From Lineolata rhizophorae (lineage: Eukaryota > Ascomycota > Dothideomycetes > Lineolatales > Lineolataceae): a stretch of DNA of 64,000 nucleotides. Under the pieces are notes generated by a model, which had not been told where the DNA came from, ran no database searches, and saw only the letters and a program-made list of their open reading frames with translations. This document shows, one piece after another, positions 607 through 55,710 of this stretch. The stretch covers positions 78,533 to 142,532 of the forward strand of contig MU001703.1 in NCBI GenBank assembly GCA_010093515.1. The letters run 5' to 3'. Made by a program: the position numbers and the translations under genes. Numbering within the stretch: position 1 is the stretch's first letter; every line of letters starts with the position of its first letter.

Positions 607-3600
607 CTACTTCGTGCCATGTCTCCTCTTGTACTTCCTAGGGTCTATGCCAAATCAGCAAAAGTGCAATACCATCTTAACCGCGTCATAGGCGCAGGGA
701 AGCATCCACATCCATGAACATGCAAAGGAGTGGCGTTGAAAACAAAGGCTCCCACGCACGAAACCCTGCCATCATGCTAAGAAACCGAATGCTCGAGCCC
801 AAACCCACACAGGCGAAAACGAACCCGAATGCAGGAAGGCAAAAAAAAACTAGCACCCAGGGGGCGGATTGGCAGGACAGATACGTACCCTTCCTCGACA
901 TGCGGACCTTGTCACGAGTGCCTAGGCAGCGAAGCAAAAACCCGTCAGCGATCCCCCCATCATAGCAGTCAAAGAACAACAAAAGCCCGAAGAAGACAAA
1001 AAAAACAAAGAAAAGGTAGATATCCCTCGGAATCACGCTAGAGACGCGGCATCCGCACGTCCCCGAAGACCGTGACTTCCGCACCCCCCTTTCTCATCTC
1101 CCCCCACAGCAAAACCGCGCAAGCGACGCCCCGGACCAAAATTCCAAACGACGCCGCTCTCCAGCGGACATATTCCCAACCCAAGCGGGCCCCAGACGAC
1201 GCGACGCCGCACGGCTCCAACCGCATCTCGAGGTCCACTCGGAATCCGGCGCCGGAACCCGGTCCAAGGGGAAGGGCAAAAGGAAAGCCACGAGACCTGG
1301 CTCTTCCCAGGCGTCGCATATCCGGAAAGGGAAACCACCACCGTCGCGCACGGGGTCCCTCTCCGCCGCGTCGAACTCGACCAACCCCCCTCTGGGCGCA
1401 TCGTCTCAAGGAAGGTACCCTCACCGTACCAATTCTCACGACTCCCCTCCCGCATACCTCACTCAAAACGCATCCATCATACTCGCGCCCTCGAACACCC
1501 CCCCATCCCGCCCCCCCTAAACCCCGCCCTCTGCCCTCCGCCCTCCGTGTGCACGATGACGATCCGCCTCGCTCAGCCGGATCAGCGTCCGTCCGCTCGT
1601 GCCCGGCGAGCCGGAAACGATCAGCGCCTGGGCGCCGCGGAACGGCCGAGGAGCGGCGGCTGCGCGCATGATGGGTTCCGTCATAGCGACCGGACGGATC
1701 GAGGGGCGGGACCGGGGAGACTAGGAGGAACAGGGGGAGTTCCCCGAAAAAGGGAGAGAGGGGATGGTTGGTGCAGGTAGAAGGGAGTTGAAGTGAGTGA
1801 ATGAGTGAGCGAGTGAAGTGAGCGCGGCAGTGATAGGGAGCTGTGCGGCCGTACCGTGCTGCGTGCTGCACCACGTTAATCCCCCATATCCATGCATCCG
1901 ATGGATGATGCCGTTTGGGTCGTCGAAATTCAGCCGCATGCTCCACCCCTCGCCTAGGTAGATTTTCTCTCGACTAGCCTGCAGGTCGTGACAGGAGAAC
2001 AGACGGGCCGCTCGAGGCAACGGTATGTCACTCCGGCAGCGCGGGTGGGCGGGCGACTGCAGGCCGGACATGCGCCGCCGTGCGGCTGCGGGTCTTGAAT
2101 GGCCCCGGCGTTGGCACCAGCATCCAAGCTCCGTCGGTGAGATCTCCGGCGGTGGCGCAAAGAGAGAGAGGAGGCATGCCAGAAGCCGGGGGTTCTCCGG
2201 CGGCCCCAAAATGAAGGAAAAGTAAAAAAAAAAAAGAAAAAAGAAAAAAAAAGAAGGCTACCACAAGCGGCTTGCAGCGCGTGCTTCGGCCCGCATGCAA
2301 CGCGTCACGCAACGGACGACGACAACAACCGGAGCCCTCCCTCTGCGCCTTTCTCCCTTCTTCTCCCTCCCTCCTGCAGACGCGATACGTCCGGCCAAAC
2401 AAGTTCTCGCCCGGGCGAGCAACAACAGTACGATGACGCAGGTGGTTGCACGCGCACGACGCACGACAAACACCCACCCCCCCCGGAGCACGAACGTCTA
2501 ACCCCACAAGGCGGACCCCATGGACAAGCAAACAACAACCCGCTCCGCCCATCTGCGATGCGGCATCGTGGCACCCACCCCACCGAGACGACGACCAGGA
2601 TCTCCCAGCAATCAATCCGGGCCTTCTAGGAGATGTCGGGGCCTTACTGGCGCTCCTCTCCGGCGCGGTTTGCACGCAGGCACCGTCAGATTGGCCGCCC
2701 CAGAATGCGCTTCTCGCTCCTCGCTTCTCGTTGCTGGATGCATGTACCCCGGATTCCGCGCGCGCGCCCAGCATAAGGAATCGCTCGGGGGGACAACTTT
2801 CGGCGCAAGACGACGATTGTGTTACCCCCTCCCCCTCCCCTCCATCAGCGACCCCACAAACCCGCAGCGGCGGCGCCGGTTGCCGGCGCCGGGGAAATGG
2901 GAAGCGGAAAGGCCTGAACTCCGTCGGGCTCCCGTGCCAAACTGGGGGCGCAGAAGGAATTGAATCGAATTGGATTCAATCAATGGATGCATTGAGCTGC
3001 CCCCAGCCGACGGCCATCGGATACGCTACTCGCGCAACCCTATGCGGGCGCTCGGCAGACTTGCCTCGGCGTCGCGCCCCCTCCGCATTTGACCGCAGCC
3101 TCGCGGACGGGCGCACCCGCGCCTTCCTCGCCCCGTAAGATCCAAAACCACCTTGGCAGCGCTGCAGCTTGAGCGCCAGAGCGCAGACCCAATTGCGCTC
3201 GGGAAGGCAGTTCGCGATGGGCTACCCGAATCTGCGGTGCAGAGCCGGAAGGGTCGTTGCGATTGCGCCCCCGCGCTTCTCCCCCCCTGCCCCGGGTGAA
3301 CCATGCCCAGATGCGCACGTGGGCTGCGCGATCGGAGCGACCTGGGGGGGCCTGACGCACATGATGAAGATGACGTTTCCGCCGGCCCTCCCTCGGCAGA
3401 TGGGCTCGGGTGCCGGACGGGAGCGGGAACGAGGAAGGCTTGGCGGCTCAAAAGAACCCAACCTAAGCGTTTGAACCGCTGGGCCAGCTAGCAAAGCCAC
3501 CAACTCTCCGCCATCGTCGATTATTTTGCCGTGGAAAATGAAACAGAAACAGAAAAAGCCCCATCTTGTCGTATTTCCTCTCTTCTCCCCCGGACGCGGA

Positions 3601-6600
3601 ACCGAAACCGCGCACGCGGTGCTTTTCTCGGTCGCACGCCAACGGGCCAAACCGCGCGGCCGGTCATGCGGGCTGGGGGCTGGTTTCCATGGTTCCCTCC
3701 CGCCGGCGCAACCGCGGTCAAATAGAACTCGGACCGGATCCCTCATGGGGTAAATGGTGCTGCCGGTCGCTTGTCGCCTGCGGTGGGCCCCCGGGGCCAT
3801 TGGCCTCGGCGGGAAATTCGAACATGTCGGGGCAGCACGATAACGGGTGTTCCAGTTGGCAACGGAGCCGGCAAGCCTTACTACCGTTCTTCCCGCGGAT
3901 GGGGGTGCCCCTCCATGTCATGTCAGGTACCAAGACGGGGCTCCAAGACGGCCCGGTGGAAAGGCGCCCTTGGTTGGCAGCCAAAAATGCGGGGTGAGAG
4001 GGAGCGAAGGAGCGATCTTGCGCAGGTGATCGCAATGACGTTGTGGGGCTCCCTCCTTGCAAGATTTCAGGATTCCCAGGAATCTTCTCAAAGAAGATCC
4101 CACCCACTGTCTCGGTGCCCGTAGCGAGGAAGAAAAGGTAGGAAAAGGATTCAACCGGATAACCGACCGCAGCGCCGGGGCAAAAAGAAAAAAAAACACG
4201 GCTAGGAAATTCCATCCATTCGGTCGTCAGCTCTGAATTTCGCCTTCCCTCTTCCCGGTGAAGCGGAGAGCTTCCCGCAGCTAGGCATGTAGGTAGGTAC
4301 TCGGTCGGACGTTCCCACCTCACCAGCCACAGCCGCCCTCTCCCTTCCCGCGCCCCGAATATTCCCGGCACTACCACCGTAGGCCCAAGAGCGCCCTCCT
4401 CGGGGCCAAAAGGGGTTTGCCGGCCGTTAACCAGCCCCCCCCCCCCCCCATCCCCCCCTAGGCCCGCGCCTTCGCCGGCCATCGCCACGTTTTCCGATTG
4501 AACGCGCGTTCAGCGGGAGCACTTCCGAAGGCGCGCCGGGTGGTATGTAGCAAGCCAAGGGCCCGTGACCCGGAATAAGGGCACGCCGCATGCGCCGCCA
4601 GACGCCAGGGGTTTCCTGGGTGAGCGAGTTGAGCGAAACCCGTCCGTCGTTGGCGTATCCAAGTGCGCTACGGCATCGCGGGGCGGCGGCAGCGGCGGCG
4701 GCGGCGGCGGCGACTTGGCGGCGGAAAAGGTTTCCTCCAAACCCCCCCCCTCCCCCCCCCCGCCCTTTGTAGCGCGACGGGACCCCGTTGGACTCGAGTA
4801 CGTGCAGTGGTACATCAGGACCATTGGTCTATGATACGGAACCCACTGCAGCGAGCGGTCGCCTGAGACAAGATGGTTCAGTCGAAACAAAGGGCGGCAT
4901 ATCCAAATCATCAAAAGTAGCGTCGGCCCGTGGGAAAAAGTTCGGTCAGTTGTGGCGCCAGTGATCCCAGGAGGTTCCATTCACATAGCCGCTCTAGGAA
5001 GGTTGTAGAGCGCGCATGGCGGAGAAAAAAAAAAGACTCAAGAAAAACTCTGAATGACAGGAAAAAAAGAGACGTAACCAGTCAAGGCCGGCCTTACCTT
5101 TGCCGCCCTCCCAGAATCCGGTGCCGCGCTTGCCCACCAGAGTCGCATGGCAGATAGCGCAGTCTTCGGGACGGTAGTTCTGCTCGCGAGAACCTGTGTT
5201 GCAAGACGAGAAAAGGCACCTTCGTAAGCAATACCGCCCTTTTCCACATCGAACGCAATCAGGGAGCCCAAAACAGTCAAATGGGTACAGGAGTACAGCA
5301 AAGGGGAATGGTCTCGATGCCCAATGAACCGCATTCGTCACCAGCTTTCCAGAAGCGTCAGCCCCACTTCGGTGAAGCAGAGCCCCACTACTACTACGAC
5401 GTAGGCAGTAGCAGCAAGCCCCACTCTCCCCGGCCGAGTCGAGCTGAAAAGCGGCCGGACCAAGTCACGGAAGAGTTTAGGGCCCGGCGCAAGACACGTG
5501 GAAAGCGTGAGGCAAAGGGCGAAACATGAGGCAAAGGATCGTCGGAGGGGGTTTTGCGCTAGAAGGGGCGTGGAAGACGCACAGAAACCACTAGTGTCGA
5601 AGCACATGGCAGACGTTAGCAAATCGCTTCAAATCGAAAAGCAAGAAAGGCAAAAGAAAAATCCAAATCGACGCCACCAGAGGTAACCACGCGCTACGCA
5701 GTGGAGTTATCCAACGGAGAAGTTTCGGTGACCTCTACTAGGTATTGTAGTCGTTCTCGGCCCGAGAAGTCTCGTTCTTTAGACTTCGGCCCTTTACCGT
5801 AAAGGGTACTAAGACGACCCTGCATATTTCCCTCGCGGCTACGAGCACGTAGGTAAGCACGGTAGACGGCCCCGCTTCGGCATCACCGTCATTGCTCGCC
5901 TCTACATACAACCGCCCCCCGTTCGCCAACCTACGGAACACCATCTTCGAATTGCGCCTCGGGCGAGCCGTGGATGACACCTCCCAGAGAGACAGCGGGA
6001 CGCGGCGCGAGAGAGGTACGAGTGTGTACCAGATCTCCGAAACCGCCGGCGCACGTGGCTGCGGGCCTAATCACAAGCCCTTGAAGCTCAACCGCCAGCG
6101 CCCGCTCCAGCGATGTCTCCGCTCGAAACGACCAGTCCCACGTGTGGAGGCCCAACGGCGCAACGTCGTAGCATAACGCCTAGTGCGAGCGCCGGCGCAA
6201 ACAGTCACGCTCGCGACCCTCACTTTTGGTGTTCCGTAGGAAGAAGAGGTAGGGCGGAGCGGGGCTGGCGCCAAGAAAAGTAAGGAAAGCCCGCCACCCG
6301 GGTTCTCCAAGCCTTCCCAGAAGAGGCCGTGGCGCGCGTGCGGATCTGAACTGCCGTCTCTCTCCGGAGCGTCCGACTGGCGCAGTAGCTGCAACGGTGG
6401 GAGAAACAAGTCGCCTCAAAACGTTGCAATTCGGCCGGCCCTGGGCCCCCCGGCTGCAGAAAGAAAAGATACGCGAAACACTTTTTGCGTGTTTATTTTG
6501 AAACCTTCAAGGAAGATTAAAACTCACCATATCATCCGATTGGCGTGCTCGTTGGGATGCGATTCCGTCTCATCGTGACACCTGCAACAAACCAGGACAA

Positions 6601-9600
6601 AAAAAATTTTTTGCGTCAGCGTGATGGGTGTGTCGTATGCCAGTCGAGGGGGAGGGGGGTAGGAGGGGCAGGAACTGCTCGATCGGGAATGCCGTCGCGG
6701 CCGGTAACAGTACTACTACGTAAGCAGCAGCAAAGTCGCCAGGAAAGCAGTCGAAGCAGTTTTGTTGAGAGCTCTCTTCGGGCGGGGTTGGGAATCGATG
6801 ATGATGGAGGGGCAAGGCAAGACAGCATAGGTTGCCCTGGCCCCTCGTATGCATCAGGGCGGAGAATTAAGCGCCGCACGCCGGGGACCGGAGGGGGGGA
6901 GCTTGGGGAGGCCTCACTTGTCACATGCGAAGACCTTTGCGCAGCACGAAAACCTTTTAGGCGCGCCCCCGGGCCAATCAGAGGGCGCGCGCGCGTCAAG
7001 TCAGTGAAACCCGCTCCATTGAAGTCGGCGCGCGGCGCGTTTTGCGGCGGCAGGCGAGCCAAAGGACGTCCGAGCGGAGCCCAATGCAATTGGCACCCGG
7101 AAGCAAAAGGAAAAAGCCGAAAAGAAAGCATACCGGAACCAACGATACGACTTGGAGTAGTGGGCGCAGCGGCCGCGCTTGGGGAGCTCGTGCCCGGCGA
7201 CGATGCCAAGCTTTTCCTTCGCCTAAATGGCGCGCATCCGGCGTGGTGTGCGATCAGCATGCAGCGACGATCTCCGGGGCGTGTGAGTGGGTGGGTGGCG
7301 GGCGCGGGTGCGGGTGTGGGTGTGGCTCAGAAGCCGGGCCCGACAATGAGCCCATCACAATCCGTTGCGATGCCTCTTGGCTCCACCCCGGCCCCTCCTC
7401 GACCTTCGCAGTTGCCTGGTGGATGGATGTATAGGGCGTGTATACGCATACACACTCCCCCGTACTCCTCCTCGCGCACGCGCTGCGCAGGCCCTTCCCC
7501 TTGTGGGAATGCCGGGGTGGCACTTTTTCGTGACTGGTCCGGTGTGGCGGGGATGGGGTGTGAGTGCGAGTGACGACATACCTTTTTGCGCCGTGGTGCC
7601 CTGCTAGCTCGAGCTGTAACGCGACGGGTGGAACTTTTGGTCAATAAAACGCCCTGTATTGGAGCAAATGAAAAAAAGGGTGGTGGGGTCCGCGAGGAAA
7701 GGGGAGCAATCGGAAGCTTCTCCGGGCTGCCGGTAGTGCGACCGACCGCCCCATCGTCGAGCCGCCAATTGGGTGGTGAGAGCCCAAGCAAGGCATGCCT
7801 TACCCGTGGACGTGTTGACCAGGAGGAATTTGACTTCGGGGATGTGGAAGTCTGTCAGGCGCAATGGCCAAGGCACGCGTGTGTGAGCGAGTCGGTTCCG
7901 CACCTCACAAATCAAACGTCGGCCCCAGAAATAGAAAATCGAAAAAAGAGAGTTTGGATAGGAAGCAACGCACTCATCCTGCGATGGCACTCCCTGCATA
8001 TCGCCATTGCGGCGTCCCCCCTGACGGCGGCCACGCTGGACGCCGGCGTCGAGCATTCAGAGCACGTGGGGACGAACGCGCTGCGTCGCGTGCGTTAGAT
8101 GACACGCCCGCCTTAATGATAGCGGCAAAGCTTAAAGCCTTCGTGGGGCGCAAGGAACCACGCGAGACGAACCTTGGAAGCAGATCCACGACGGTGCAAC
8201 CGTCGAGATCAAGGTAGCCGGCACGAACAGAGTTTGCGTGCATCATGTCCATGCGGTAGCCTGGTAGCAAAAGACGAATAGAGTGCATGGTTAGCCATAT
8301 TTTGGTCGTTGATTGAACGAGAAAAAGGGAGAGCAGTCAAGCATCACCGATTCCGAAGGGATTAGCGCATTTCTTGCATGACTCTGTTCGCATGCCAGAG
8401 GAACTGGCCGATGTATTGTTCTTCAGGCTCGATACATCCATGGTAGTCTTGCACCTGTCGCACTTGACCGTGACGCTAGGGGAGACCAATTCGAGAAGCT
8501 CAATGCCATGGAGTTCGAGAAAAGGTAGCGAGATCATGATCCCGCGCTCCGCGAGCGAAGTCATCGAAGTCTGATTCTGCCGTTGCGCGTCATCTTCCTG
8601 TTCTTCCGCTTCGTCGTCGTCCTCCGAATAGGAGTCCGTCAAGTCGGAGCTGTCGTCGCCGCCGTCGTCGTCGCCGGCGCTCCATTCCGGCGGGCGTGGG
8701 ATCTTGATTATGTGACTACGACTGGGAAGATCAGTAGCGTAGTAATATTCATCGCGAGCCTCTTTCTCTTCCTTCGCCGCGGGCTCTCCACCATCCTTCT
8801 CCAGCACAATCGCCCCAGGCTCAGCCCCAGGTTCAACAGCACCAGGCCCATCAACCCGCGCCCGCGCCTGCGCCCCTCCGCCGCCCTCCTGCACCACCAA
8901 GGCGTGCATGTTCTGCGCCAGCCAATTAACATGATTCACCAACGACAAATCCCTCCTATCCTCCGCCCTGGCCGCGAACGCCCTCTCCACGCCCTCCCTC
9001 GCCTCCACCCCGCCCGGCCCCTCCACGCCCACAATCTCGACCCTGCACGGCTCCAGATCGTACATCGCCGGCACCACGAGCCGCACCTGCCGGACGTCGC
9101 GCAGGCCCTCGGGCAGCTCCGCCCGCCGCCGCGGCTCCACCGGCACCGTGAACGCCACGCCGTCGGCCGCCCGCCGAAACCGCGGCAGCTTGCCCAGGCG
9201 CGCCTCTAGCTGGCGGCACTCGGCCTCGCGCCGCGCCCGCGCCGCGGCGCGCCGCTCGGCGCCGTAGCTCGCGGCGGCGCGCTCTCGCGGACGCGCGTCG
9301 TCGTCGTCGTCGTTACGCGGAGCGGCAGTCGGCGGCGGTGCGGCGGCACCCGGAACCGCGCCTGAAGGAGACGAAACCTCGGGCGCCAGTTGCTGCTGCT
9401 GGATGCCGCGCGGTTTGGGCGCGACGAACTTGATCGTATCGGCCTTCTCCGCCTTGAGCAGGCGCTCGAGCTCGCGATCCAGCGCGTTCAGCAGCTGCAG
9501 CAACGTCCTGCGCGGGCCCCTGGCCCCCTCCGCCGCCGCGGCGGCGAGCGCGTCGAACCCGCGCTCGACGTTGATCTGGAACCCGCGGTCCATGTCGCGA

Positions 9601-11245
9601 TTCCGGACGCGCAAGCTAGGCCGCGGCGCTCCGGGCGCCGGGTACGCGCCGGGCACGACGAGCGCGCACTCGAGCGCGGGCATGTCGAAGGGGAAGTCCG
9701 GGTCCGAGGGGACGAGCCTGAAGGTCAGGACCGTCGTCGTCGTCGGTCCCTCCTGGCCCGGCCACTGCTCTTCTGGCTGCTCCTCTTGGCGCCCGCCGAA
9801 GCGCCGCTTCACCTGCGCGATCTCGAAGGCGCGGGGGTCGTCCTGCTGGGCGCGCGGCACGGGCCGGGGCACCGTCGTGCCATGGCCGGGTTGGCGGCTG
9901 CGCTGCGGGGACTGTTGTTGGGCTTGTCGTTCTCGCTGCTGAGGCTGCTGCGCCACATCTCCACTTCCTCGAGCTTCACCCCTTGGCGGTGGCTTGCGGT
10001 GGCGGTGCGACGGGCCACCGCCGTCGTCATCGATGCTTCGGCTTGACACTGGCGGGGAAGGATCCCGCCGCGCGTGCTCAGACTCGGGGCGGGCCGCGGA
10101 CCGGGCGGCCTCGGGCACCTGATTGTGCAGGTAGGGGCACGCATCACCCGCTCGGCAGCCTAAAAAAAAAGTAAAATGCCGGAATTAGCGATCGAGAATT
10201 GGTCAGCCAGATTATAATTCGAGAAATGTCAGGGATGGGAAAGAGGTGGGCATGTGCCAAGTGCGAAACGCGAATCAGGAATGGAGACGGCGATGCTCGG
10301 TACGGGGAATAAGTGAAAATGGGTGATTGAAATGCGGCGTGAGAGACAGGTGATGCGGTGGTTGACCATCCGAAAAAGAAATGCCCCCCCACGCGTGGCA
10401 ACTGCGACAGTGTTATGGAGATTGGGGAAATAAAAACATTATAATTGAGATAGCCGGAGAACAGCACTCCGCGGCGGGAACAGAGACAGAGTGGGAGCCT
10501 GGAACGAGTCCAAAATCCAACGTGCGGGGATCGGGTGTGCGTATTGGGTAGCTGGGGGATAAGGCCGGGCTACTGGGTAGGTAGGATAGGGAGCGATTTT
10601 GGGGCACGCAAATGCAAGCGTGAGTGGAGTGAGTTGACTCTCACTCAGTAAGGAGTCCACAGCCGCGCGTATCCCGGGGGTGCGGGCGCCCGACGAACAC
10701 CACACAGCAGCGGGCAGAGACACCAGGCGTTACAGTTGCAGCAGCTCAGCAACTCAGACTGGTCCGGGGGGGTACGAAGCTGGGCCCCGGCCGAGGCAAA
10801 AGCTACCCCAGGCCGGGCGAGCAGAGAGACGGTGCGGGTGGAGGGGGGAAAGCAGTCATCAGCATTACCTGTTCTGGACCGAAAGAAGCGGCAGGGCACG
10901 GCGCCGGGCGGGCGGCGGCGACTGCGCGGTGCCTGGTGAGGCTGAGAGACTGCCAGCGCATCAGTCCCCGGACGTGAGCAGATGACCTTTCGGGATGCAG
11001 CAGCGCCTCCCGCGCCAGCGCATCAACCGCGGCCGGCGACTCGCCCGTTTTCGTGAGCGAGCGGTCGGCCCTGGACGGGGGTGGCCGTCGGGGTTGCAGG
11101 TTGGTGGTGACTTACCGGTCGCGCCGTCGCCGGCCTGGGTCATGCTGCCGCTGTTGATGTTGCCGCTGTTGGCCGCCGCCGCCGCCGGCCCGCCGCCGCC
11201 GGCTCCACGGCTGCCTAGCACAGCTGCGTCGTCCTCCGGCACCAT
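607..11245 (-). CDS. C3H1 + RWD-like + CHY zinc-finger protein, 14 exons, 883 aa
   Basis: Exons in coding order: 11245-11116, 10949-10869, 10159-8348, 8260-8173, 8080-7974, 7851-7804, 7613-7582, 7222-7134, 6953-6918, 6581-6528, 5590-5583, 5193-5098, 921-889, 644-607. They sum to 2652 nt, exactly 884 codons, and every junction is GT-AG and in phase. The protein has a CCCH finger (Cys63, Cys72, Cys78, His82), a charged middle with RWD-like segments, a conserved block near 675-720 containing MHANSVRAGYLDLDGCTVVD, and a C-terminal CHY finger (about 767-870) with GRCAHYSKSYRWFRFSCC, HPNEHANRMIC and REQNYRPEDCAIC. It ends DPRKYKRRHGTK. The CHY family includes Pirh2 and yeast Hot13, but no RING finger is seen here, and the fungal C3H1-CHY proteins have no established role that I know of. 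The ATG at 11245 was chosen because a strong GTAAGT donor follows; an upstream in-frame ATG at 11287 is possible. The introns total 7987 bp, extreme for this group. Confidence 0.85.
4435..4449. repeat. 15-base C homopolymer
   Basis: An uninterrupted C run inside intron 12 of the CHY gene. Further C-rich strings follow within about 20 bases and again near 4741-4762. Confidence 0.9.
4684..4712. repeat. (CGG)n microsatellite
   Basis: Near-perfect CGG triplets with one interruption, inside the giant CHY intron. This is not coding sequence in the gene model. Confidence 0.85.
5583..5590 (-). other. 8-nt microexon of the CHY gene
   Basis: Minus-strand TGGTTTCT is preceded by CTAG and followed by GTGCGT. 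A consensus branch site GCTAAC lies about 29 nt upstream of the AG. Exon 10 ends in TG and exon 12 begins with GT, so inclusion gives Cys-Gly-Phe-Cys (residues 826-829) and restores the conserved ANRMICGFCSREQNY. Without it the frame is lost. Both cysteines of this zinc-binding pair are interrupted by splice junctions. Confidence 0.8.
5591..6527 (-). other. 937-bp intron 10 of the CHY gene
   Basis: The donor GTGAGT follows the codons for HPNEHANRMI plus TG; the acceptor is CTAG before the microexon. Nothing coding is recognised inside. The following intron (5194-5582) is 389 bp. Confidence 0.75.
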
Positions 11246-20453: not shown

Positions 20454-22335
20454 CTACCAGCCCTTCTCATGGTACTCCTGCAACCCCTGGTCGAAGAACG
20501 CATTCCACGAGTTGTTGCGCAAGTTGCTCTCCTTGATGGTAGGTCGATACGGTAGATGTTGTTGCTGCTGTTGCTGCTGCTGTTGTAGCGCCGGCGGCTC
20601 GCCAGGGAACCGCCTGAGGTTCTTGACGTCGTGGGATGTGTGCCTCCGCTTAAGCGCCGCCGACGAGGCCGCACTCTTCTGTTGCCGCTCCCACAGGATG
20701 TGCTTGCGCAGCGACTCGGGCATCTCCTGGGCCAGCATGTTGCGGCGCGTTGTGCGCGGCGACAGGGCGGGAGGATGTGTGTTGGACGTGGTCACGATGA
20801 TAGGCCGCGCCCGCGAAGCGGTGGGTCGCATCTCGAGCGGTGGTGAGTCGTCGTCGTCGTCGGGCGACGTAGCGAGCGACGGACCGTTGGGTGACGACGT
20901 GCGCGACCGGCGGATGGCGGGTGTGGAGCGGGAGGCGTTGTTCTGGAACGCGGCGGCGCGCTCCTTCTCGTGCAACTGGCTGGTCAGGAGCGACCGGTGC
21001 GAGGTGAGAGCTGGACGTGAGTCGACCCGCTGGAACGACACCTTTTCTGCCGTGGTCGACTCCTCGCTCTCCGAGTCCGAGTCCTCCCAAGCCTCCTCGT
21101 CGTCTTCTTCAATAGCACTCTCCGACTGCTCATCGTCTTCCTCGTCCTCGCTCTCAATAGCCGAATCATTTATTGTGGCGTTGAAATCGCTGATCATGTC
21201 CGGCTTTTCCTTGAACGACGGCTTCTTGAACGGCCGGGTGATATTGTTGGACAGGTTGCTCAGGTTGCTCTTCGTCGACAGCTGCATGTGAGTCTCGAGC
21301 GAACTTTCGCCTCCCTCATCGGATGAACAGCCCAGGACGAAAGTGGCGCCCTTCTTCTTAGAGTCGCCTTTGTTGGTTGGTCCGAGTTCGTGAATTGACT
21401 GACGCGTCGCTTGAGAAGGTTGTAGGGACTGTGCCGGCATGAGCTGCGTCTTGGAGCGATGTGATGAGGATATCCTTCCGGGCTGGAAGCCGTAGACGAC
21501 GCTGTGTTCGCTCATGTTGGTCGAAGTGCTCGCTCCCGAGCCCAAGGTCGGGCTCAGGGAGTCGGTCTCGGCAGTGACGGTGGTCGCCACTGTGGAGGTG
21601 GAGGATTCGGGGAGTTTGTGCGAGGGCTCCGAGCGTGCTGGTGAGACTGGTCGAGGGGTGGTGTCCTCCGCTCGGGAGAAGGGTTGGGCTTGCGAGGTAG
21701 AAAGCGTCTTAGGGAGTGGGGAGAGAGGTTCTAGCTGCTTCTTTTCCTTGATCGAGCACACAATCTTCTCCAAACCGTTCGGCGTGATGTGTTTTTCTTT
21801 GCCTCTACTCCGGCTCTCGGTCGAGTCGGTCCGTTTTATCGTCGGGCGCGTGACCGAGGTGCCCTCGGTGGACGACTCGGAGTCAGGCGTGGAGGAGAGT
21901 TCGGGGACCTCGGCAGCCGGAGCAGCAGCCGTCTGCTCGTGACAAGAGGATTTCGAGGACGCGAAAGAGGGCGACCAGCGGGAGGCGAACAGCGGTGACG
22001 AAGGCGAAGTGCCCGTCTGGTGCTCAGGAGCGCAGCAAAAAGTCTCGCGATTCCATAACCTCCAGCTCATGTTCTCTAGACGCTTGCCGTGCTCCATGGT
22101 TTCGGAGCACTTGGAGAATACTGCAGGTCGGGCGAGGTTAGCAACAATTCGGGCGGCACCGCGGCACCGCGGCACCGCGGCACCCAAAAGGGAAGCCGCC
22201 GGCGATAGGAAGCGGGCGGGGGAGTTCGTCCGTACCAGACCAGAGGCCGAAGAGGTTCTCGGCGTCGCGAGTGTCGATGGTGTGCATCGACTCTAGCTCC
22301 AAGCTGACAATGGGTCGTTCGGAGCGGAAAGGCAT
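20454..22335 (-). CDS. AreA-like (DUF1752) / DUF3295 regulatory protein, 588 aa
   Basis: Two exons, 22335-22236 and 22120-20454, joined across a 115-bp GT-AG intron; the total is 589 codons. Exon 1 encodes an N-terminus ending NLFGLWS. Splicing adds VFSKCSETMEHGKRLENMSW (residues 34-53) and RLWNRETF, the short areA-like motif also called DUF1752. The DUF3295 region follows: an acidic stretch (AIESEDEEDDEQSES), then VSFQRVDSRPALTSHRSLLT, then SPRTTRRNMLAQEMPESLRK and a C-terminus FFDQGLQEYHEKGW. The protein is otherwise Ser/Pro-rich and disordered, with nine consecutive Gln near the C-terminus. Members are presumed nuclear nitrogen or nutrient regulators by the areA-like motif; the biochemical function is not established. 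The ATG at 22335 was chosen because it begins the conserved exon-1 peptide. Neighbours on both sides are gene-free. Confidence 0.85.
22155..22184. repeat. 8-bp tandem repeat in an intron
   Basis: About 3.75 copies of GGCACCGC within the single intron of the DUF3295 gene, roughly midway between donor and acceptor. Copy-number change here would alter intron length without touching the coding sequence. Confidence 0.85.
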
Positions 22336-53943: not shown

Positions 53944-54522
53944 GATTGCGGGATGGTGCGGCACGCGCCGCCTTGACTGTTAGCGTAAAAAAGGTCTCTG
54001 CAGAGCGGATGTGCCGAGCGGAAGCAAAAGACGCGTTGTACGAGTGAAGAGATGCACAAGACGCGTGGGCGGCGTGCCGGGAGGGCGGTGGAGACGAGGT
54101 TCAGTGCGGCTCTACAAAAATTGTCTGGACGCCGCGCTGCGGGCTTGGCGGGCCAGAGCTCCAGGTGGTGGTGATCCCTGCGTTGTGGCGCGACGTTTTC
54201 GCTCCGAGGTCCGACCTCCACCACACCAGCCACCCCAGTTCCCTGCCCATCGCCGCCGTCCTGCCTCACTCTGCAGCCCATCTGGCTTCCACCATCATTG
54301 TGCATCTTTCAGCTTCACACGCGGTCATTGACTACCTTCCTGTGCGACTGTGCTTGCCCATGTTGCTCGGCTAGCACTTCACCCTCCGAGAGCGCATCGC
54401 TCGGTTGCCAGCTTCGCGAATCGCCCATCGAAGCCCAAGCACGTAGCTGACCGACGTCACTCACAATAAGCGCGCTTTGAGCTATCTTCGCGCACTCTCT
54501 CCCCCGTTCTACAGCAGACGAG
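53944..54522. promoter_or_regulatory. Divergent promoter region of CCT5 and HP1
   Basis: 579 bp separate the CCT5 start (minus) from the HP1 start (plus), so both promoters must lie here. Pyrimidine-rich stretches just upstream of the HP1 start (CTCTCTCCCCCGTTCTAC) look like a fungal start-site region. I did not find a clear TATA box. Confidence 0.6.
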
Positions 54523-55710
54523 ATGCCTCGTAAGTTCACTACTAACCTCTCGTACCGCTGCCTCCCGGACGGGCATCTGGCGGTGCGCCGCCCGCCGCGA
54601 AACGGCGGCGCATCCCGGGAGCTTCACGCGCCTCTCTACAATTCGTCTACCAGCAATGCGCGACTCAAGTGCTAACTTCAAGCCTCTTCCGTCAGCCCCG
54701 TATGTCCCCGACGAACAAAGCGGTTCCGGTAGCGAAGGCTACGCCGAGGATATCCCCTCGAAGCGCGGCAAGGCTGTGAAGCCGGAGCCGGCGGAGGATG
54801 AGGGTGAGGAGGACGACTCGGAGGAGGAGTTCGTCGTGGAAAAGATCTTAAGGCACAAGTGGATGGACGTGAGTATTTGCGCATGGTCTCATTCGATTTC
54901 TGCCAAAGCGCCCCACGATGCCCTTGAGCAAAGTCTGCGGCTGCGCCGACAATGCGCTGACGCGTTCACCTTGAAGGACCTCCTGTACTTCCAAGTAAAA
55001 TGGCTGGGATATGAATCCGCGTCTGACCGGACCTGGGAACCCGAAGAGAACTTAGCCACCGCGCCCGACGTCCTCCGCGAGTACTTTAAAAAGATTGGCG
55101 GTCGCCCCGAGCGCAAGACCATAAAAGTGGAACCCCCTTCCACAGAACGCAAGCGCAAGAGCGGTGTCTCCTCCGTAAGTGGCACACCCACTGCCAATGC
55201 CTCGGGGTGCGGTCGCGGGCGCAAGAAAGCGCGCACCGCGAGCATTGAAAACGATGGCTCCGATGACGATGGCCCCGTCGGAGATTACCTCGAAGAACGC
55301 ATCATTGTGCGCAAGCATGCGGACTGGGTGCCCCCCAAGGGCAGCTGGGAGACGTACATTCAGAAGATCGACACCCTCGAGGAGAACGAGAACCCTGTGA
55401 CGGGCAACGTGGAGCGCGTAGCGCTGGTTCAGTGGAACGACGGACGTCGCAGCCAGCATCCGGTGCGCGTCTGCAACCAGAAATGCCCGCAAAAAATGCT
55501 CCAGTTCTATGAGGAGCGAGTGTAAGTCCTCTACGCCTTGAAGTCTCATCTCTAAGCCATTCGCTGACCTCACTTCTTTGAAGCGTCTTCCGTACGAACC
55601 CCGACAACGCGAATAATGCGGATAATGCGAATAATGCAGGCCCTGCCGAAAACGGCAATGGAATGATAAAAAAACTCGAGAGCGAGAGCCCCGTATTTGA
55701 GAGCAACTGA
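54523..55710 (+). CDS. Heterochromatin protein 1 (chromodomain + chromoshadow), 297 aa
   Basis: Exons 54523-54529, 54654-54868, 54977-55521 and 55584-55710 total exactly 298 codons; the introns are 124, 108 and 62 bp. An acidic N-terminus leads into the chromodomain (about 60-115: EEEFVVEKILRHKWMD, then QVKWLGYESASDRTWEPEEN). The methyl-lysine cage positions are Phe62 (often Tyr), Trp83 and Tyr86. A basic hinge (ERKRKSG, GRGRKKARTAS) separates it from a chromoshadow domain (about 198-258: WETYIQKIDTLEE, then VERVALVQWNDGRRSQHPVR). This arrangement is HP1 (Neurospora HPO, Aspergillus HepA), which binds H3 methylated on Lys9, dimerises through the shadow domain and keeps repeats silent in the nucleus. 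The tail has a short NANNADNANNA repeat. Exon 1 is only ATGCCTC; the ATG at 54656 is an alternative start. Confidence 0.93.

Follow-up and report, generated by a model that had tools for sequence, protein, structure and literature searches.

The locus and its gene content

The window, which is the whole stretch of 64,000 nucleotides of Lineolata rhizophorae DNA that was analysed, contains a minus-strand gene at 11245-607 whose 14 exons join into an open frame of 2652 nt (883 residues followed by a stop codon). The predicted protein contains a CHY zinc finger (Pfam zf-CHY, PF05495) that scores 33.2 bits over the whole protein and 38.7 bits over the last 119 residues, both above the Pfam cut-off of 31.3 bits, and the gene is referred to here as the CHY gene. 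Homology supports exons 8 to 12 only, while the remaining exons were placed by frame and splice signals. Exon 11 and its two flanking introns are listed further below; the other features are the following.

11116-11245, minus strand: exon 1, coding part, 130 nt (frame and splice signals only)
10869-10949, minus strand: exon 2, 81 nt, first part of a C-x8-C-x5-C-x3-H pattern (joined frame; Pfam CCCH models below their cut-offs)
8348-10159, minus strand: exon 3, 1812 nt, remainder of the C-x8-C-x5-C-x3-H pattern (same basis as exon 2)
8173-8260, minus strand: exon 4, 88 nt (frame and splice signals only)
7974-8080, minus strand: exon 5, 107 nt (frame and splice signals only)
7804-7851, minus strand: exon 6, 48 nt (frame and splice signals only)
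7582-7613, minus strand: exon 7, 32 nt (frame and splice signals only)
7134-7222, minus strand: exon 8, 89 nt, start of the CHY finger (...GRCAHYSKSYRWF; frame and CHY homology)
6918-6953, minus strand: exon 9, 36 nt, CHY finger part FSCCAKVFACDK (frame and CHY homology)
6528-6581, minus strand: exon 10, 54 nt, CHDETESHPNEHANRMI plus TG (frame and CHY homology)
5098-5193, minus strand: exon 12, 96 nt, GT plus SREQNYRPEDCAICHATLVGKRGTGFWEGGKG (frame and CHY homology)
922-5097, minus strand: intron 12, 4176 nt
889-921, minus strand: exon 13, 33 nt, TRDKVRMSRK (frame and splice signals)
607-644, minus strand: exon 14, 38 nt, DPRKYKRRHGTK plus the stop codon TAG (frame and splice signals)

The protein has the tail TRDKVRMSRKDPRKYKR, which we take to be typical of fungal CHY proteins. 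The exons at 7582-7613 (32 nt), 6918-6953 (36 nt) and 889-921 (33 nt) are small, and together with the 8-nt exon 11 bring the number of exons of 36 nt or less to 4 of 14. Direct reading of the N-terminal region shows the C-x8-C-x5-C-x3-H pattern (10949-10100, minus strand), which is split by the 709-nt intron between its first and second cysteines. A Pfam search found no RING domain in the protein, and no Pfam domain in the eight open reading frames inside intron 12 or in five from other parts of the gene.

The 13 introns measure, in order, 166, 709, 87, 92, 122, 190, 359, 180, 336, 937, 389, 4176 and 244 nt. All 13 have GT-AG ends, and 11 contain a CTRAY motif within their last 60 nt, CTRAY being the branch motif in 91% of the Fusarium introns of a published set (PMC5677156). 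That set, 2022 introns from 226 genes, spans 42-529 nt with a median of 57 nt; the CHY gene has 10 introns longer than 130 nt and three longer than 529 nt. The ordinary introns of the window look short, as the 11 gaps between adjacent exon matches to an E2 enzyme are 45-128 nt, with the reservation that at least 5 of the 11 lie within one open frame and so may be insertions. Intron finding by codon use over 252 kb (a 200 kb genome sample and 52 kb of the window) was unsuccessful because codon bias was too weak, and selected only 1 and 4 introns. When compared with the genome, introns 10 and 11 match only their own locus, while intron 12 also matches 18 other places, in every case over less than 60 nt.

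The length of these introns, together with the position of exons 13 and 14 some 4.2 kb past exon 12, could indicate a gene copy that has decayed or was wrongly assembled and whose exons are joined in no functional transcript. This is extremely unlikely, however, since the frame is kept across all 14 exons, every intron has GT-AG ends and a genome search with the 119-residue CHY part turned up no further copy, its four matches all being exons of the CHY gene itself.

Elsewhere in the window, a large open reading frame at 20457-22292 (minus strand) encodes an AreA-type GATA domain and DUF3295 (478 bits), and a protein with chromo and chromo-shadow domains, presumably HP1-like, is encoded at 54470-55522 (plus strand). 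Further genes encode Zn2Cys6, RTA1-like and CCT epsilon proteins. This gene set points to a filamentous ascomycete. By frame and splice sites, the CCT-epsilon gene has an apparent 10-nt coding exon 1 (53943-53934, minus strand) and an 18-nt exon 2 (53851-53834, minus strand), the latter showing that small exons are not limited to the CHY gene. The window contains no tRNA or Rfam matches. The assembly contains no exact copy of a conserved 17-base pattern of 18S rRNA and may therefore lack rDNA. A search for orthologues gave 19 and 2 pattern matches in collections of prokaryote and virus contigs, none of which was confirmed, and four peptide strings had no match in the literature searched.

The microexon and its junctions

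The CHY finger is interrupted by introns 10 and 11, which enclose an exon of eight nucleotides. The elements of this region are as follows.

5591-6527, minus strand: intron 10, 937 nt
5614-5620, minus strand: branch-site-like GCTAACG on the microexon side of intron 10, read from the sequence
5591-5592, minus strand: 3' splice site AG of intron 10 (TAG/T, the slash marking the junction), supported by splice-signal scoring
5583-5590, minus strand: exon 11, the 8-nt microexon TGGTTTCT, entered in phase 2 and left in phase 1, core of C-G-F-C
5577-5582, minus strand: 5' splice site GTGCGT of intron 11, a hexamer identical to the donor of intron 5
5194-5582, minus strand: intron 11, 389 nt, CTRAY being absent from the last 60 nt; relaxed branch motif GCTTAC

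The first-pass annotation had proposed that this exon encodes the core of a zinc-binding CxxC, and its reading of the junctions is borne out base by base. Exon 10 (6581-6528) ends in ATG ATA TG followed by the donor GTGAGT; TGGTTTCT is bounded by AG and GT (...CACTAG before 5590 and GTGCGT after 5583); and exon 12 begins with GT at 5193 after ...ACACAG. Once joined, the sequence reads TG/T GGT TTC T/GT, which encodes Cys-Gly-Phe-Cys in the protein context MICGFCSREQ, with both cysteine codons split by the exon junctions. It is only with the microexon that the CxxC of the second half of the finger stands at the correct spacing; the same annotation went too far in taking MICGFCSREQNY to be a conserved string. 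The upstream branch site that it had pointed to is also present, with GCTAAC at 5620-5615 and the branch A at 5616, 26 nt before the microexon.

As an internal exon of 8 nt, the element falls within both the narrow (up to 15 nt) and the wide (up to 30 nt) size definitions of a microexon. It has its own branch-site motif, acceptor and donor (GCTAAC, TAG and GTGCGT), and only when it is present does a recognisable protein stay in frame. Skipping shifts the frame, as had been claimed, into ...MIWFSRAELPSRR... and then a stop, giving 860 aa instead of 883. Retention of intron 10 leads to an immediate stop (826 aa), and retention of intron 11 leads to a product of 909 aa with a wrong tail.

Chance matches and rival fillers

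The interval between exons 10 and 12 (6527-5194, 1334 nt) offers many potential small exons. It contains 229 AG..GT pairs enclosing 60 nt or less, 61 of which are in frame without a stop. Among these pairs only the 8-nt filler gives C-x-x-C directly before SREQ. An 8-nt AG..GT filler that yields C-x-x-C arises, however, in 37.6% of 30000 random intervals and in 37.2% of 8000 (each matched to the dinucleotide make-up of the 1334-nt interval), and also in 124 of 334 real genomic tiles. Restoration of CxxC was therefore rejected as proof by itself, being expected by chance about 37% of the time. The exact string CGFC is far rarer (0.27% of random intervals) but was also set aside as proof, since conservation of its glycine and phenylalanine is not supported by the Pfam profile. 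The profile favours the two cysteines and not the residues between them: six C-x-x-C cores, CGFC included, score 38.2-39.4 bits, while changing both cysteines to alanine lowers the zf-CHY score from 39.3 to 35.2, a loss of 4.1 bits.

Scoring against the family profile separates the microexon from its competitors. The 8-nt form scores 39.1 bits (38.7 in a longer form) and stands at the top of 13 forms, the 12 others (drawn from the 60 remaining in-frame, stop-free fillers) scoring 27.2-35.5. Three rivals measured against the 38.7-bit form reached 34.3, 34.8 and 32.7 bits. When the microexon is skipped, the zf-CHY match is confined to profile positions 1-39 and scores 33.0 bits over that half of the profile, still above the cut-off.

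Splice signals, which carry no protein information, were scored with two models. The Fusarium model, built from the published donor, acceptor and branch frequencies of the 2022 introns of 226 genes (PMC5677156), ranks the microexon pair first of 226 AG..GT pairs, about 3.1 bits above the runner-up, a 21-nt pair that fails to restore the frame. Its acceptor is first of 60, and its donor is fourth of 79 when exon positions are counted and second when they are not. The window model, built from 17 other introns of the CHY and CCT-epsilon genes with the tested sites left out, also ranks the pair first of 226 (acceptor third of 60, donor first of 79), with a poor score (-2.5 bits) for the 10-base tract of the microexon acceptor. 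A candidate of 1-60 nt that at least equals the microexon in splice score is present in 188 of the 334 real tiles, so such a score is common by itself. A filler that gives C-x-x-C and also has at least the window-model score of the microexon is rare: 16 of the 8000 simulations produced one, as did a single tile among the 334 real ones; thus, splice signals added to CxxC exceed what chance would give.

The CHY domain of human RCHY1 (2k2c) is a weak match (E 0.0083) in which C-I-N-C is aligned to C-G-F-C without a gap inside the motif, and this distant homologue has a two-residue indel beside the CxxC. Against RCHY1 alone, the 8-nt filler ranks 30th of 62 under the HMMER composition correction, with the skipped form first, second of 62 without the correction and fourth of 62 by BLOSUM62. 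With ranks of 30, 2 and 4, RCHY1 homology alone was rejected as an arbiter because it is too weak.

These rankings bear on the idea that another exon, or pair of exons, within 6527-5194 fills the gap and that TGGTTTCT is a chance match. Sixty other single exons of 60 nt or less would keep the frame without a stop, and an 11-nt filler at 6388-6378 is slightly ahead against RCHY1 alone in two scorings, but the same filler receives 33.0 bits on the family profile, compared with 39.1 for the microexon, and no rival among the tested single fillers, all of 60 nt or less, leads in both profile and splice signals. Replacement by another exon is thus very unlikely. Positions 5590-5583 are, with high confidence, a real internal coding exon of the CHY gene that would be included in the mRNA, a judgement that overlaps with the reading, taken up below, in which inclusion is regulated.

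Comparison with known microexons and CHY proteins

The first-pass annotation was right as to an 8-nt coding microexon that completes a CxxC, but overstated the case in ranking eight nucleotides with the smallest of all spliceosomal exons, as exons of 1, 3 and 6 nt, including a 1-nt plant exon, are reported (PMC4674806). In plants, 2398 exons of 1-15 nt were counted in 10 species (PMC8831610). Plant microexons resemble that of the CHY gene in being tiny, internal and mostly coding, with sizes down to 1 nt and about half having lengths that are not multiples of 3, and they are often absent from annotations. They differ in having RNA-seq support and in forming 45 clusters conserved across land plants. 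Among fungi, gene models of Phanerochaete chrysosporium P450 genes contain comparably short exons, down to 6 bp (PMC1184071); this species, in contrast, is a basidiomycete, and its P450 microexons are described as coding for 2-10 residues and lie among small introns of 45-55 bp.

The closest precedent in kind is Xlr2 of Trichoderma. The report on it (PMC11121469) describes a 20-nt microexon that encodes PCRRCE of a Zn(II)2Cys6 finger, is not expressed in glucose and is missing from the JGI gene model; its authors state that functional microexons were previously undescribed in filamentous fungi. Like the CHY microexon, it belongs to a filamentous ascomycete, has a length that is not a multiple of 3 and contributes two zinc-finger cysteines, and without it Xlr2 loses its DNA-binding domain. 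However, the Xlr2 microexon is 20 nt long, lies in a Zn(II)2Cys6 transcription factor rather than a CHY finger and holds its cysteine codons whole, whereas both are split in the CHY gene. It was also seen in RNA-seq and depends on glucose, whereas the CHY microexon is predicted from sequence. The earlier expectation that an automatic gene caller would miss an 8-nt exon is plausible, given that the JGI model left out the one in Xlr2.

Among CHY proteins, RCHY1/Pirh2 (2k2c, 7ynx) shares the domain family, and its C-I-N-C aligns with the CxxC, but it differs from the CHY gene protein, in which a Pfam search found no RING domain. The Pirh2 CHY domain is reported to have six zinc sites (PMC10148881). 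The cysteines of C-G-F-C would be expected to bind zinc.

How the microexon would be spliced

Introns 10 and 11 would most likely be removed as two ordinary GT-AG introns, each recognised through its own donor, branch site and acceptor. Such intron definition is invoked because complexes that bridge an exon need more than eight bases, and the microexon would not need to be defined as an exon itself. In fission yeast, splice sites are reportedly paired in this way. For a fungus, 937 and 389 nt are large sizes for introns recognised in this way, which counts against the explanation. The microexon would supply the middle 8 of the 12 bases that code for C-G-F-C, completing both cysteine codons, and skipping would shift the frame and give a shorter product, probably one that is degraded. 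Inclusion is probably constitutive because a complete in-frame CHY finger needs the microexon.

The same features allow for a real microexon whose inclusion is regulated, so that splicing would decide whether the full CHY protein is made or a product that is truncated or decays; this is an unlikely reading. That slow removal of the long flanking introns would set the switch, as likened to Trichoderma Xlr2, is equally doubtful. A length of 8 nt, not being a multiple of 3, means that skipping turns the product off. At 937 and 4176 nt, introns 10 and 12 are longer than any of the 2022 Fusarium introns, and intron 11 (389 nt) is far over their median, whereas the five CCT-epsilon introns in the window are only 54-82 nt; the 20-nt zinc-finger microexon of Xlr2 offers a precedent. 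On the other hand, apart from the acceptor tract the microexon has ordinary rather than weak splice signals, and introns 10 and 11 do not fold in any unusual way (z -0.59 and -1.26). Were inclusion regulated, the rate of long-intron removal would set the amount of functional CHY protein, with the 8-nt exon as an on/off switch, an arrangement to which we assign a low probability. Zinc-finger-splitting microexons would then be a recurrent regulatory device of fungi, with Xlr2 and the CHY gene as two independent cases.

Significance

Coding microexons, fungal ones included, are already known, and the CHY gene probably adds another case. No microexon of a CHY gene was found among the best-ranked titles of the microexon literature searched, and one may exist elsewhere. 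The fungal spliceosome is thought to use intron definition on short introns, and the CHY microexon offers a clean test of how it locates an exon of 8 nt that is flanked by introns of 937 and 389 nt. For annotation the case is cautionary, since leaving the microexon out of a gene model costs the protein half of its zinc finger as well as its C-terminus. Taken together, the CHY gene and Xlr2 hint that microexons which split zinc fingers may be commoner in filamentous fungi than gene models show.
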